The notes beneath the pieces are model-generated. The model was not told where the DNA came from. It worked only from the letters and a program-made list of their open reading frames with translations, and ran no database searches. Shown here piece after piece: positions 1 through 39,778 of a stretch of DNA of 57,969 bases. Origin of the DNA: Deltaproteobacteria bacterium RIFOXYD12_FULL_56_24. GTDB taxonomy: Bacteria > Desulfobacterota > Desulfobulbia > Desulfobulbales > Desulfurivibrionaceae. Location of the stretch: NCBI GenBank assembly GCA_001799285.1, contig MGTD01000029.1, forward strand, positions 1 to 57,969. The letters are read 5' to 3'. The translations under genes and the position numbers were made by a program. The stretch's first letter is position 1. Each line of letters begins with the position of its first letter.

Positions 1-335
1 ACCCCCGCAGACGGGTCTCCAGCACTGGGCAATAAATCTTCGAAAATATGCCATCCCTGCTACCCCGTGAGTCGATGAACGCCACTTCCGTTATTCCAGC
101 GCCCATCCAACGGCCTTCCCCTTCTGACCACAGGGTCGGCTTCTCCATTTCGTTTACGAGGCTACTCATAGGTTCACTTGCGTTACGGCCTGCTCTCTTG
201 CTGTTTGGAAACTCACGACCCCGTGTTACCACGACGCCGCTTCCTCATGCTACCTGGGCGTACGGACAACTCCCCAGACGGGACTTTAACCCGCTAGATT
301 CACTGCTATTACTGCGAACGGCCAGGTCTGGAAAA
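1..335 (-). mobile_element. Group II intron, 5' ribozyme portion (partial, runs off left edge)
   Basis: Read on the minus strand, this stretch has the conserved, non-coding look of a bacterial group II intron upstream of its maturase ORF. It contains CTAGCGGGTTAAAGTCCCG, then AACGCAAGTGAACCT and GAAATGGAGAAGCCGACCC, then CATCGACTCACGGGGTAGCA. I recognise these strings from introns of the chloroplast-like type. The intron would run leftward off the window, so no reverse transcriptase is seen. The exact 5' splice junction (consensus GTGYG) could not be placed; it should lie somewhere in about 335-420. Open frames crossing this DNA are not believable proteins. Family assignment is from memory of conserved intron sequence, not from folding. 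Confidence 0.6.
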
Positions 336-34219: not shown

Positions 34220-36151
34220 TTACTGGAGAGGCAGAACCACCCGGACTTCCAGACCGCCGCCAAGGTGGGGCTTGAGAGAGAAACTGCCGCCATGGGCGTT
34301 GACAATCCGTTCAACCAGGGTCAATCCCATACCGGTTCCATAAGTTTTCGTGGTAAAAAACGGGTCCTTTGCCTTGTCCAGATAGGATTCCGGAATCCCA
34401 GGGCCGGTATCGATTACCGAAACAATGGCCTGCCCCTCGCCGGCCCCCACGGCAACGGTCAACCGGCCCCCATCGGGCATAGCCTCCACCGCGTTTCTAA
34501 ACAGATGGAGAAACACCTGGCGAATCTGATGCAAATCCCCCTGGATAACCGGCTCCTGGACGGGGCATTCCATCTTCCAGGTCACGCCATGTTTTGCCAT
34601 GCTCGACTGAAGGAGAAGGGCTGTCTTTTCGACCACCACGCAGAGCGGGATCTCCTCCCTGTGGATCTCTCCCTGCCCCACAAAGGCAAAAAGATCCTCC
34701 AGGGTGGATTCCACCCGTTCTGTTTCATGAATAATGACATTCAGATATTTTCCCCACTCGGGATCGACATTTTTCTTGCTCAGAATGCGGGAAACCCCGC
34801 CGATGGAGGTGATGGGATTTCTGATAATGTGGACCAGCTGGGCCGCCATATGGCCCAGAGCAGAATAACGCTCCGCCTCGACCAGCAGATCCTTGCTCCG
34901 GTCGAGTTCCTGATTCACCGCCTCAAGCTCGACGATCTTGCGCTGCCGTTCGTTGTGCAGATGACTTTGTTCAATGGCGAGGCTGGCTTGGCTGGCAAAC
35001 AGTTCAAGGGCGCTGATATGATTATCCTCAATGGGGCGCCTTGTCACATAATTATCGGCAATGATTACCCCGAAGGAACGTCCAGGAGAGTACAGAGGCA
35101 CCACGACAAAGGAATCCTCATCAAGAATATTGATGAGTTCCCTGGGCACGGCAAGAGGAGGCGCACCTCCCTCCGCTTTTTCCCGTTGCTCATTAAGCAG
35201 GGGCCCGTTGCCATGCCTGCCACCATTGCCGTTACGCCGCTCCAGAGGCAAGGGCACCCAGCCGTTTTCCGGCGAAACCCGGTAGCTCCGCCTGCCCAGC
35301 ACGGCACGAATCAGGATGTTCTCGGTGTCCTCGGCCGAAACCACCAAACTCCTGGCAATAGTGTTGACCGCGGCTTCCTGGGACTTGCTGATCTCTTTGA
35401 GATTGTCAACGATCTGTAAAAAATTGAGCTCCCGCTCCTCGATCTCCTCCCACACCCTCCCGGCTTCCTCCCGGGAACTCGGGCCAATGGCCAGCCTCCC
35501 CCGCAAAAACCGGCCATCATCATCAAACATAACCAGAAACGCCCGGTTAAAACCCAAACCTTCCCGAGAGGTAATCCCCACCAGAATGGCTCGCAGGATC
35601 TGATCAAGTTCCACGGTGCTCAAATAGACGGTGTTCATCTTCACCGACAACTGATGCAGAAGCTGAATCCGAAAATGCGCCTCTTCCAGCTCTTCCTGAT
35701 ATTTGCGATTCTCAAAAACCAACCGCCTCTTTTCCAGGGCCTTGCGCGCCACATGAAATATTTCTTCAAACTGCACCGGTTTGGAGAGATAGTCCGTGGC
35801 GCCCTTGCGCATGCAATCCAAAGCTACCTGCAGATCAGCGATGCCGGTGAGCATGATCACGGCAACATCAGGGTATTGGTCCACGATCCGGGGCAAAAGA
35901 GAAAGACCATCAGTATCCGGAAGACCAATGTCAAGAAGGACCAGGGCCACATTCCGGGAGGACAGGACCTGCATGAGGTCTGCCGCCAAGGCGCATTCCA
36001 CCACGGGCAGGCCGTGTACTTCAAAATAGCTCCTGAGCGGCTCGCGAATTGCCGCATCATCATCAACAATGGCGATAATCTCGCCATTTTGCAGCAGTTG
36101 CCCCAAGGAAATGGAGACATGCTTATGCAGCCCGGAAACCGCTTCAACCAT
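34220..36151 (-). CDS. Receiver-GAF-histidine kinase hybrid
   Basis: 643 residues, soluble. Receiver domain (25-140) with D30-D32, phospho-acceptor D74 and K124. GAF region (about 165-395), split by a low-complexity insert (305-330, RRNGNGGRHGNG). HisKA with H441 and HATPase with NAVEAM, DTGPGIP and TGMGLTLVE. The H-box reads VHIIRNP: the acidic residue normally after the histidine (HEIRNP) is isoleucine, which would impair kinase or phosphatase chemistry in HisKA proteins. An upstream kinase may feed the receiver. The gene stands alone. Confidence 0.85.
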   Translation of the reverse strand: MVEAVSGLHKHVSISLGQLLQNGEIIAIVDDDAAIREPLRSYFEVHGLPVVECALAADLMQVLSSRNVALVLLDIGLPDTDGLSLLPRIVDQYPDVAVIMLTGIADLQVALDCMRKGATDYLSKPVQFEEIFHVARKALEKRRLVFENRKYQEELEEAHFRIQLLHQLSVKMNTVYLSTVELDQILRAILVGITSREGLGFNRAFLVMFDDDGRFLRGRLAIGPSSREEAGRVWEEIEERELNFLQIVDNLKEISKSQEAAVNTIARSLVVSAEDTENILIRAVLGRRSYRVSPENGWVPLPLERRNGNGGRHGNGPLLNEQREKAEGGAPPLAVPRELINILDEDSFVVVPLYSPGRSFGVIIADNYVTRRPIEDNHISALELFASQASLAIEQSHLHNERQRKIVELEAVNQELDRSKDLLVEAERYSALGHMAAQLVHIIRNPITSIGGVSRILSKKNVDPEWGKYLNVIIHETERVESTLEDLFAFVGQGEIHREEIPLCVVVEKTALLLQSSMAKHGVTWKMECPVQEPVIQGDLHQIRQVFLHLFRNAVEAMPDGGRLTVAVGAGEGQAIVSVIDTGPGIPESYLDKAKDPFFTTKTYGTGMGLTLVERIVNAHGGSFSLKPHLGGGLEVRVVLPLQ

Positions 36152-36364: not shown

Positions 36365-37579
36365 TTACATCTCGATCAGGAGTTTGTTGCTGTCCTCATT
36401 CCAGCGCGCCACCAGCCACCAGACGGCCATGACCAGGAAAACCAATGCCAAGGTGCCACCGTAGCCGAGAAAGGTGTTCGGCATATAGACAAAGCTGCCG
36501 AGCTTGCCTGCGTTGGTGACCCCTTCATTAAGAAAGGCGTCCATTCCTTCGACATCGCTGACGGAGAACCACTTGTTCATCAAGGAGTTGGCTATCCCGA
36601 AAAAGGGAACCACGATCCACAGCTTGATCTGGCCTTCGCCGACCCGCCAAAGGGTGCCGGTACCGCAGCCACCAGCCAAAATGGCGCCAAATCCGAAGAT
36701 CATCCCGCCAACCACACCGCCCCAACCGAAAGTGCCGCGCACATAATGCTCCACGTCGTTGATGCCGCCGGCCTTGACGATCACTCCGCCGATGGTCAGC
36801 AGGACGATGCTCAAGGCCACCGACTTGGCCATGGTGGCGTTGCCGGTCATATGCGGTTCACGGAAACCCTGGATCATGCACCAGCGGCCCCGCTGCATGG
36901 TGTAGCCCAGCGCGGCCGCGAGCAACAACACCCCGCCCATCTTGGTAAGCGCCTCATTGGCAGTGTAGGTGTAGGCCCCCCAGATCATGACCAACAGGGC
37001 GACAATTCCGAGCACCACCTGGGTGGCAAAAGGAATTTCGATGGTCTTGGCCCCGCCGCTGCCCCAGGAGACATTCTCCATCTCCCAGTAAATGTACTTG
37101 AGACCGATAATGGCGCCGGCAATCAACCCGGCCATCATCGCGAAACCGCTGGCGGAGAGATTGCCGATGGCGTTGTAAAATCCACCCACGTTGCACCCTC
37201 CGGCAAGGGCCGCGCCGACTCCCATACAGATACCGGCAGCCACCCCCTTGACCATTTCCAGAACCGGCGGAATCCGGAAGGCGAAGTTGTTGCCAAGGCA
37301 GGCGGAAAGAAAAGCACCGCCCACAAAACCGAGGCCGATGATGGAACCGCCATTGACAAAAATCGAAGCAGGAGCATCGCTGTAGATTCCGATTCCGTAA
37401 AAAATCCAGTCCGCCCAGTTGCGCACCGCCCCGGTCGCTCCCCAAGGCCGGTACCAGGCCAGGAGCATCACGCTCAGAAAAGCGACGAGGGTCCCGGAGG
37501 TATAGGGATTCCACTCATCCTGGCACAACTTTTTGTAAAGCTCCTTGGCAGTGCCGCCAAACCCGCTGCTTCCACTCAT
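36365..37579 (-). CDS. YeeE/YedE-family (TsuA-like) sulfur transporter
   Basis: 404 residues, about 11 membrane helices. Two YeeE/YedE halves each have a glycine-cysteine signature: ALAGGCNVGGFYNAIG and ILAGGCGTGTLWRVGEG, plus GRWCMIQGFREP in the centre. Members such as TsuA import thiosulfate through a relay of cysteines. Start 37579 follows GGAGAGGAGAG. Divergent from tusA-dsrE-dsrE, so uptake and intracellular sulfur carriers are probably coordinated; the actual substrate (thiosulfate, persulfide or other) is inference. Confidence 0.88.
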   Translation of the reverse strand: MSGSSGFGGTAKELYKKLCQDEWNPYTSGTLVAFLSVMLLAWYRPWGATGAVRNWADWIFYGIGIYSDAPASIFVNGGSIIGLGFVGGAFLSACLGNNFAFRIPPVLEMVKGVAAGICMGVGAALAGGCNVGGFYNAIGNLSASGFAMMAGLIAGAIIGLKYIYWEMENVSWGSGGAKTIEIPFATQVVLGIVALLVMIWGAYTYTANEALTKMGGVLLLAAALGYTMQRGRWCMIQGFREPHMTGNATMAKSVALSIVLLTIGGVIVKAGGINDVEHYVRGTFGWGGVVGGMIFGFGAILAGGCGTGTLWRVGEGQIKLWIVVPFFGIANSLMNKWFSVSDVEGMDAFLNEGVTNAGKLGSFVYMPNTFLGYGGTLALVFLVMAVWWLVARWNEDSNKLLIEM

Positions 37580-38034
37580 AATCGCTCTCCTCTCCCGTTT
37601 TTTCTGAAAACCACTGTGCCTTCCCGACATTCTCCGAGTGAAACCCGGAAAGTCGGCGCTTCGAACCCAATTCGCAAGACAGCTCGGAACGATTTTCTTT
37701 ACCCGGTGCCGGACACTTTTGTCAAGCCGTGAAAACATCTCGACGCACATCCTGAAGCGCCACCACAATGTGACATACAACCTGGGGAAAAATCAACCGG
37801 AAAAACAGGGGGTTCGCGCCGAACATTCCGGCCAATGATCACTCACAAATTCCCTTGACATGGTCCGCGGATGTTTGGTAGAGACTAATTCACCATTTTT
37901 TTTGAAGAAGTTTACAGTACATGCAGCTCCCCCGTAGAACAGCAGCGGCATCGAGCGGAACCATCTCAAAAATCCCGCCGTTTCCCGTTTTTTTTAAAAA
38001 ATCAAACACCAAAATCTTTTCCAAGGAGGAAAAC
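37580..38034. promoter_or_regulatory. Divergent control region between yeeE and tusA
   Basis: 455 bp without a gene. For the tusA side, TTGACA at 37855-37860 lies 17-18 bp before a weak -10 (GTAGAG/TAGAGA, near 37878). GAAGAAG-type purine runs follow, and AAGGAGG at 38022-38028 is the tusA ribosome-binding site. A frame open from 37921 is in phase with tusA but has no translation signal. No clear operator palindrome was found. Confidence 0.5.
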
Positions 38035-38295
38035 ATGAGCGACGATTTCAAGAAAGTCCCGGAAGGAATCACCCCGACCCGCACCCTGGACGCAAAAGGC
38101 CTGAGCTGTCCAATGCCCCTGTTGCGGACCAAAAAGGAAATGGATAAACTGGGTTCCGGGGAAATCCTCGAAGTTCTTGGCACCGATCCCGGCTCCCGCA
38201 ACGACCTGCCCGGCTGGTGTACCCGCGCCGGACACGAGTATCTCGGCGAAAAGGAAGACGCCGGCTTCATCCGTTTCTACATGAAGAAACAATAA
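38035..38295 (+). CDS. TusA-family sulfur-carrier protein
   Basis: 86 residues. The signature GLSCPMPLL with the active cysteine C25 carries a persulfide. The protein is the size of TusA/SirA proteins but has a second cysteine, in DLPGWCTRAGHEYLG, which the family often has. It delivers sulfur to partners such as DsrE proteins. Start 38035 follows AAGGAGGAAAAC. Confidence 0.93.
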   Translation: MSDDFKKVPEGITPTRTLDAKGLSCPMPLLRTKKEMDKLGSGEILEVLGTDPGSRNDLPGWCTRAGHEYLGEKEDAGFIRFYMKKQ

Positions 38296-38364
38296 TTCCC
38301 ACAAACGCCATGGCGCCCGGATCTTTTCGGCTCTGCGCCTTTCAATTATTCAAGGAGACAGCAA

Positions 38365-38679
38365 ATGGCTAAAAGTTTGGGTATCTTTGTCACCTCTCCC
38401 CAGAACATGCGGCATGTCATGGGAGTAACCAAGGCCGCCAAGGCCAAGGGTTCCAAGGTCAAGGTTTTCTTCAGCTGGTACGGCGTCCACTTGACCAAGT
38501 GTTCTGATTTCCCGGCCCTCTGCGAACTGGCCGACGAGGTTTCGATCTGCGTGGACAGCTACAAGAAGTGCGGCTACGATCCTGCCGATATCCCCAAGGG
38601 TCTTGAGGCCAAGGACATGGCCACCCAGGGCCAGCACGGCGCGATCATTGAAGACTACGAATGCTACCTGACCTTATAA
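38365..38679 (+). CDS. DsrE-family protein 1
   Basis: 104 residues, DsrE/TusD-like fold: KSLGIFVTSPQNMRHVMGV, a TKAAKAKGSKVKVFFSWYG core, and cysteines in TKCSDFPALCEL, SICVD and KKCGYD. A probable sulfur-relay partner of TusA. It is separated from tusA by a 69-bp spacer with AAGGAG before the ATG, and lies 10 bp upstream of the second DsrE gene. Confidence 0.88.
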   Translation: MAKSLGIFVTSPQNMRHVMGVTKAAKAKGSKVKVFFSWYGVHLTKCSDFPALCELADEVSICVDSYKKCGYDPADIPKGLEAKDMATQGQHGAIIEDYECYLTL

Positions 38680-38689
38680 GGAGAAAACC

Positions 38690-39004
38690 ATGTCCAAGAA
38701 AGTAGGCTTTCTACTGGTAAACAAGGATTACACCCTGGACGGTATCCGCTCCGCTCTGGGACTTGCCGTCGAGAACATGTATGCGTATGCCTATGTTATG
38801 AACAACGAACTCACCGAGGTGAGCGACTACCACAAGGAAAACATCGAGTGGATTCGCGACATGGAAGGCGAGGTCTACACCACGGTGGACGCTAACGCCG
38901 AGAATTTAGGGATGCCCAAAGTCACCCTCGAAGAGATCGGCAAGCAGCTTCGTGACCTCGAATACATCATCCCCTACGGCATCATGCGCTCGGACAAGAG
39001 CTGA
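38690..39004 (+). CDS. DsrE-family protein 2 (TusC/DsrF-like)
   Basis: 104 residues: KKVGFLLVNKDYTLDGIRSALGLAVENM and YAYAYVMNNEL match DsrE/DsrF-like folds. The sequence has no cysteine, so it is probably a structural partner in a hetero-oligomer rather than a sulfur carrier. Confidence 0.82.
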   Translation: MSKKVGFLLVNKDYTLDGIRSALGLAVENMYAYAYVMNNELTEVSDYHKENIEWIRDMEGEVYTTVDANAENLGMPKVTLEEIGKQLRDLEYIIPYGIMRSDKS

Positions 39005-39039
39005 TCAACCCCGAGAACCAACAAACAAGGAGTGCTCCG

Positions 39040-39213
39040 ATGAAACTCTTGAATGTATATCGCTCTGAACCCAATGACGACACCAAAAAACTGGTGGAGA
39101 TCGTCTCCGAGGGTCGTGACGCCGAGGCCTTTGCCCTCAATGTCGAGAACCCGGACTACGACGCCTTGGTGGACAAAGTTTTTGCGGCCGACCAGACCAT
39201 CTGCTGGTGGTAA
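39040..39213 (+). CDS. 57-residue TusB/DsrH-like small protein
   Basis: 57 codons after AAGGAG at proper spacing, ending the tusA-dsrE-dsrE operon and followed by a terminator. It starts MKLLNVYRSEPND and ends AADQTICWW. TusB/DsrH proteins end in tryptophan and sit at this position in tusDCB/dsrEFH sets but are about 90 residues; the cysteine three from the end is the likely functional residue. Treated as a shortened DsrH-like subunit by position and ending only. Confidence 0.65.
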   Translation: MKLLNVYRSEPNDDTKKLVEIVSEGRDAEAFALNVENPDYDALVDKVFAADQTICWW

Positions 39214-39309: not shown

Positions 39310-39642
39310 TCAAGCATTAATCTGTGCATCCGCAAGCATCCGGTCAAGAAAATCAAAAAGGAACTGGCGCTGGCCCTGGTTCGCATAACTAATGCAAGAG
39401 CAATGCAGGTTGCTCTTGCTCCGGACCAGAAATTCGGCGATCAACCTGCTCCGCCCCAGCTCGATCCCGAAAAAAAACGGCCCGCATTGCCCGTGCCCCT
39501 GCTGGGCTTCGCCCAGTAGCTCCTCCGGGACCGGCAGCCAGAACATCCCCTCCATGGGGGCCGACGGCAAGGTCCGCTTCAGATATGATTCCAGATTATT
39601 CTGTTCTTCTCTGTTCAATTCATCAATAACAAACTGACGCAT
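39310..39642 (-). CDS. Conserved hypothetical protein, 110 residues
   Basis: Starts MRQFVIDELNREEQNNLESYLKRTL-like and is soluble, with SNLHCSC cysteines near the C-terminus. No family recognised. AGGGGG precedes ATG 39642 on the minus strand. It stands alone between the sulfur-carrier operon and the HIT gene. Confidence 0.6.
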   Translation of the reverse strand: MRQFVIDELNREEQNNLESYLKRTLPSAPMEGMFWLPVPEELLGEAQQGHGQCGPFFFGIELGRSRLIAEFLVRSKSNLHCSCISYANQGQRQFLFDFLDRMLADAQINA

Positions 39643-39778
39643 GGCATCCCCCTGCCGGTTTTCCACTAAATTAGTATTTTTGCTCTGATTTGCCACAGGA
39701 CAACTCCCAGGCAATAGCGTCCCTCATCACAATACCAAAGCAGCCGCAAGCTGTCATCAGAGATGACTACCTTTACAT

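Follow-up and report, generated by a model that had tools for sequence, protein, structure and literature searches.

The five genes at positions 36365–39213 of the window, that is the 57,969-nucleotide stretch of DNA from Deltaproteobacteria bacterium RIFOXYD12_FULL_56_24 analysed here, very probably form a yeeE-tusA-dsrEFH type II (YTD) cluster, in which sulfur would be relayed from TusA to Cys62 of DsrE, then to DsrC and finally to DsrAB. The YTD cluster was reportedly described by Umezawa et al. in 2020. It is a conserved system by which sulfate-reducing and sulfur-disproportionating bacteria import sulfur and pass it on, and it has already been described and biochemically tested in related bacteria, with the window holding a further copy. 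A preliminary description of this DNA had proposed a sulfur import-and-carrier unit, which was borne out; gene content and order match the published cluster. Its view of the system as "minimal" has to be withdrawn, and the system is not new, with the cluster being already known as YTD and DsrEFH type II being reported from 985 genomes in 20 phyla (PMC13293266).

Gene layout and published counterparts

The yeeE/yedE-like gene for a sulfur-compound transporter (36365–37579, reverse strand, 404 amino acids; Pfam Sulf_transp, 1.1e-40) is divergent from tusA and the three small genes. Its ATG at 37579 has the ribosome site GGAGAGGAGAG ahead of it, and the alternative TTG start given by the ORF tool, which would yield 471 amino acids, is unnecessary. 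On the forward strand lie tusA (38035–38295, 86 amino acids; Pfam TusA, 1.8e-25), with a CPxP motif and Cys25 as the presumed carrier, dsrE (38365–38679, 104 amino acids; Pfam DsrE, 0.0069, below the family cut-off), the second DsrE-type gene dsrF (38690–39004, 104 amino acids) and the small gene dsrH (39040–39213, 57 amino acids), which ends in CWW and has an AAGGAG at 39027–39032. All five genes had been placed correctly in the preliminary description, and the 104-amino-acid product of dsrF is indeed without cysteine, as had been said of the second DsrE. Neither dsrF nor the small gene matched a Pfam family, and a Pfam scan of 52 sequences of the small protein and 53 of DsrF returned no convincing family. 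In NCBIfam, the small gene was without a match and dsrF had only a sub-threshold match to an unrelated model.

Published accounts define the YTD cluster by a yedE-related gene together with tusA, dsrE and a pair of conserved genes for hypothetical proteins (PMC9751629, PMC8780430, PMC12998232), all of which are present together in the window. In May 2026, Plum-Jensen et al. reported that, in cable bacteria, the three small genes beside yeeE and tusA code for DsrEFH type II, a complex whose sequence identity to canonical DsrEFH is very low (PMC13293266). A separate paper of March 2026 reached a DsrEFH-like reading via structure prediction and reported a DsrH-like protein without the Cys20 of canonical DsrH (PMC13047784). 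Several features of type II were found in the window, namely the order E-F-H with tusA and yeeE, a conserved DsrE cysteine and a second subunit with a predicted DsrE/F fold; the source genome also has reductive dsrAB, a common though not universal companion of type II. The preliminary description was right in taking the small gene for a DsrH-like third subunit in the DsrH position, a reading that has been published independently. The cable-bacterial cluster resembles that of the window in gene content, in order and in its one functional DsrE cysteine, and also in its background of reductive dsrAB without canonical dsrEFH. It differs in DsrF, which has two cysteines in the cable bacterium and none in the window (PMC13293266). 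The name YTD, applied to the same genes as those of the window, is tied to disproportionation, a disputed role.

Like the complex proposed here, the type I DsrEFH of Allochromatium vinosum and the TusBCD complex of Escherichia coli are three-subunit relays with the carrier cysteine on DsrE/TusD. Their third subunit also ends in Trp, with the difference that it spans 95 model positions as against 57 residues in the window. Searches of the source genome with the models for TusD/DsrE (TIGR03012) and TusB/DsrH (TIGR03011) gave no match at E <= 1, and a canonical TusBCD or type I DsrEFH was rejected on this ground. As stated in the preliminary description, the unit is distinct from tusBCD and from canonical dsrEFH, namely in sequence.

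Uptake of selenium or of sulfur for assimilation, by a system like YedE/YedF or TsuA/TsuB, was also weighed, with YeeE and TusA showing weak matches to the YedE/FdhT, TsuA and YedF models. However, these matches, including those of YeeE to the TsuA and YedE/FdhT models, lie far below the curated cut-offs (for example 88.6 against 350 bits, and 84.7 against 645 bits for TsuA), and TusA scored 17.1 against 147.5 bits with the TsuB model. Thus neither a YedE/YedF assignment nor thiosulfate uptake by TsuA/TsuB was retained. Neither of these systems is known to have dsrEFH, and uptake of this kind is considered extremely improbable.

Conservation of the gene order and of the yeeE-tusA intergenic region

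Searching the genome collection with DsrE yielded 80 loci, these being the best 80 of 101 relatives, with the loci nearest to the window bearing names such as Desulfobulbaceae and Desulfurivibrio, which points to a host that probably belongs to the Desulfurivibrionaceae. Within these best 80, dsrE was followed on the same strand by dsrF and then the small gene in every one of the 76 loci with sufficient sequence downstream; the remaining four were excluded from this count, as their contigs end 83–282 bases after dsrE. The small gene has 57 codons in 69 of 75 measured loci, 58 in five and 55 in one, as counted from the start nearest to 57, with some loci having earlier ATGs that would give 61–64 codons or more. 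Its product was present in 22 of the 27 family genomes, including all 12 of good quality, and a profile search found it encoded in 53 of a phylum-wide sample of 297 genomes.

In comparisons with the window, the small gene gave a pooled pN/pS of 0.227 (69 pairs), dsrE one of 0.243 (41 pairs) and dsrF one of 0.202 (19 pairs), with synonymous sites being near saturation in the distant pairs. The same picture was obtained for the small gene when paired with loci L002–L017 (pS 0.31–0.68, pN 0.022–0.135). These values indicate that each of the three small genes is under purifying selection. The 57-codon gene is genuine, since its position, length and sequence are conserved and its pN/pS is 0.23, and the outcomes named in the preliminary description as contrary to its reading, a small gene that is unconserved or non-coding, are not what was found. 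A chance open reading frame, as could be suspected of a gene that is short and without a family match, is practically inconceivable in view of this conservation and of the confident predicted fold of the product (see below).

The gene tusA was located upstream of dsrE in 78 of the best 80 loci, with the contigs of the other two starting too close to dsrE. In the same set, yeeE was upstream and divergent in 64 loci, in the same direction in four and without a match in 12, of which six have little upstream DNA. The other six (L062, L066, L069, L071, L073, and L078) gave no yeeE match despite at least 2500 bases upstream, and in these six the importer may be encoded elsewhere or be of another kind. 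It should also be noted that two copies of the cluster each were detected in MAG DUZW01 and genome G014 (L006 and L031; L083 and L103). In both, one copy is approximately 93–95% and the other approximately 72% identical to that of the window, and these could represent either true paralogs or mixed bins.

Two facing promoter-like sites are proposed within the gap between yeeE and tusA (37696–37884). The first, a probable sigma-70-type promoter of yeeE on the reverse strand (37696–37725), has a −35 region of TTGACA (37725–37720) and a −10-like TAAAGA (37701–37696). The second, a probable promoter of tusA-dsrEFH on the forward strand (37855–37884), has TTGACA (37855–37860) followed after 18 nucleotides by a −10-like TAGAGA (37879–37884). 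Both were identified by eye; a consensus promoter scan listed neither of them because the TAGAGA and TAAAGA boxes are off consensus. In an alignment of 13 intergenic regions, that of the window included, the TGTCAA core of the yeeE −35 region lies in a stretch invariant in all 13, as are the TTGACA and TGGTAGA of the tusA-side site. The leader of tusA is approximately 145 bases long, with no RNA family detected in it by Rfam. Across the whole window, Rfam matched nothing but group II intron domains D1-D4-6 at the window edge (53–287, reverse strand, 68.2 bits).

Directly downstream of yeeE, a gene on the reverse strand (34220–36151) encodes a receiver-GAF-HisKA-HATPase protein of 643 amino acids. 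Among the best 80 of 101 loci, 64 have 4500 bases or more of sequence ahead of dsrE, and 28 of these 64 contain a full-length relative at the corresponding place. This receiver-GAF-histidine kinase is a candidate regulator of the cluster. On the other side, a 116-codon ORF (39310–39660, reverse strand) without a Pfam match has relatives at 33 of the 103 loci that were searched, in many cases downstream of dsrH and before HIT and mobB genes.

Structure models and cysteines of the small proteins

The AlphaFold2 model of DsrF (pLDDT 92.8) is predicted to have the DsrE/F fold. Foldseek matched it to YchN (2.1e-5) and to the Sulfolobus DsrE/F-like protein 3mc3 (3.6e-4), and in a structure comparison DsrE/F-type chains scored Z 7.6–10.3, with the first unrelated entry at 6.7. 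The small protein was modelled as a beta-alpha-beta-alpha-beta structure with a pLDDT of 95.6. For this model Foldseek returned nothing at E <= 0.001, and no DsrH/TusB chain was among the 50 matches listed. Alignment with VIA-align gave Z 4.8 for YchN and 4.6 for DsrE of A. vinosum (2hy5_A), with unrelated proteins reaching 5.4; the 95-residue TusBCD chain 2d1p_C (Z 4.6, rmsd 2.5, 53 aligned) was likewise tied with unrelated proteins. As the small protein is only 57 residues long, a relationship to DsrH cannot be established from the fold by itself. Profile searches against solved structures found nothing convincing, the best values being 0.32 for DsrH and 0.21 for DsrF. For DsrE, a designed protein was matched at 0.0071 and 2qs7, whose entry is titled as DsrE/F-like, at 0.29, neither of which was convincing.

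Within DsrE, Cys62 (codon 38548–38550) was the only invariant cysteine, being present in all 33 aligned sequences, as would be expected of a carrier site, and it is inferred to be equivalent to Cys67 of Electronema aureum DsrE. This invariance is in accord with a reported conservation of 99.3% for the functional DsrE cysteine of type II and with the outcome for the Cys67Ser variant in E. aureum (PMC13293266). E, F and H of E. aureum were purified as a complex in equal amounts, 1:1:1 (PMC13293266). In vitro, TusA put sulfur on DsrE only, via Cys67, with DsrF and DsrH remaining unloaded, and the loaded complex handed sulfur on to DsrC (PMC13293266).

The lack of cysteine in DsrF of the window is not noteworthy, since TusA loads the DsrE cysteine alone in these assays; among relatives of DsrF, 52 of 76 have at least one cysteine, with none being invariant. 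In 10 of the 75 loci measured, the place of Cys55 in the small protein is taken by Ser or Thr, for which reason this cysteine is not a general carrier site and is an unlikely sulfur carrier. This replacement is in line with the published DsrH, which was not persulfidated by TusA (PMC13293266). The last two residues of the small protein are WW in 74 of 75 loci and WF in one, in a set for which the locus filter itself required W followed by W or F at the C-terminus. No subunit lengths in amino acids were found in the main texts of PMC13293266 and PMC13047784.

The 57-residue protein is very probably the normal type II DsrH of these bacteria, with a small beta-alpha-beta-alpha-beta core, as modelled, and a C-terminal aromatic pair. 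By analogy with the E. aureum complex, it and DsrF would act as structural partners without an essential cysteine. It is also conceivable, if rather unlikely, that the small subunit is an unrelated minimal beta-alpha-beta-alpha-beta protein in the place of DsrH, in which the aromatic pair and not the cysteine does the work, for example by gating access of TusA or DsrC to Cys62 of DsrE, with the receiver-GAF-histidine kinase tuning the cluster to the sulfur or redox state in the family.

Genome setting and direction of sulfur transfer

The source genome is 95.3% complete and contains dsrA (574.7 bits, over the cut-off), with a dsrB-like ORF and DsrD adjoining it. DsrD marks the reductive type of dsrAB, and the arrangement is considered reductive because DsrD stands beside dsrA and the dsrB-like ORF. 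DsrC of this genome has both C-terminal cysteines (C-x10-C-V). A dsrA match was present in all 27 family genomes, with 26 of them exceeding the cut-off. The source genome gave no match for aprA, for which reason the last oxidation steps are uncertain there; aprA was matched in 22 of the 27 family genomes and in 10 of the 12 good ones, and its absence here may represent an assembly gap or a real lineage loss.

From these data the following route is suggested for a YTD cluster with DsrEFH type II. The YeeE-like protein would move a compound with sulfane sulfur, probably of the polysulfide type, across the membrane, and TusA, judging from its family, would carry the imported sulfur as a persulfide on Cys25. 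It would then be transferred to Cys62 of DsrE in a 1:1:1 complex of DsrE, DsrF and DsrH, from which DsrC would be loaded, both of these steps being modelled on those shown in vitro with the E. aureum proteins. Loaded DsrC would finally meet DsrAB of the same genome running oxidatively, either in sulfur oxidation or in the oxidative arm of disproportionation.

A housekeeping sulfur relay for tRNA thiolation, as performed by TusBCD, in place of energy metabolism would fit the lack of a recognisable TusD or TusB in the genome, through which such a role could be vacant. However, the patchy distribution in the phylum (the 53 of 297 genomes above) is unlike that of a tRNA function, the DsrC of the genome keeps both C-terminal cysteines, and DsrEFH type II is reported to be accompanied by reductive dsrAB in 73.9% of genomes (PMC13293266). 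A housekeeping role is therefore regarded as very improbable.

The direction in which the cluster works is disputed, with one 2026 paper favouring oxidation and another, a survey, ranking the YTD and MOLY clusters as the best candidate markers of disproportionation in Desulfobacterota and Nitrospirota. In a disproportionation scheme, thiosulfate or sulfane sulfur would be taken up and cleaved by the same YeeE and TusA, with DsrEFH type II supplying both arms. All five YTD proteins are reported to be more abundant in Desulfolithobacter dissulfuricans under thiosulfate disproportionation. Against this, dsrEFH type II is reported in only 25 of 63 cultured disproportionators, thiosulfate loaded neither TusA, DsrEFH type II nor DsrC of the cable bacterium in vitro (PMC13293266), and many sulfate reducers that do not disproportionate are also said to carry dsrEFH type II. 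Disproportionation as the function of the cluster is thus possible, falling short of likely, and we lean towards oxidation as the general function, of which disproportionation would be a special case.

The window adds one genome to the known carriers of the YTD cluster, together with a near-fixed length of 57–58 residues for the small subunit in close relatives. It also adds that the cysteine of this subunit appears dispensable in evolution while the C-terminal aromatic pair is retained, and that a pair of facing promoter-like sites is conserved between yeeE and tusA. The cluster may mark a capacity for sulfur oxidation in bacteria that are classed as sulfate reducers.
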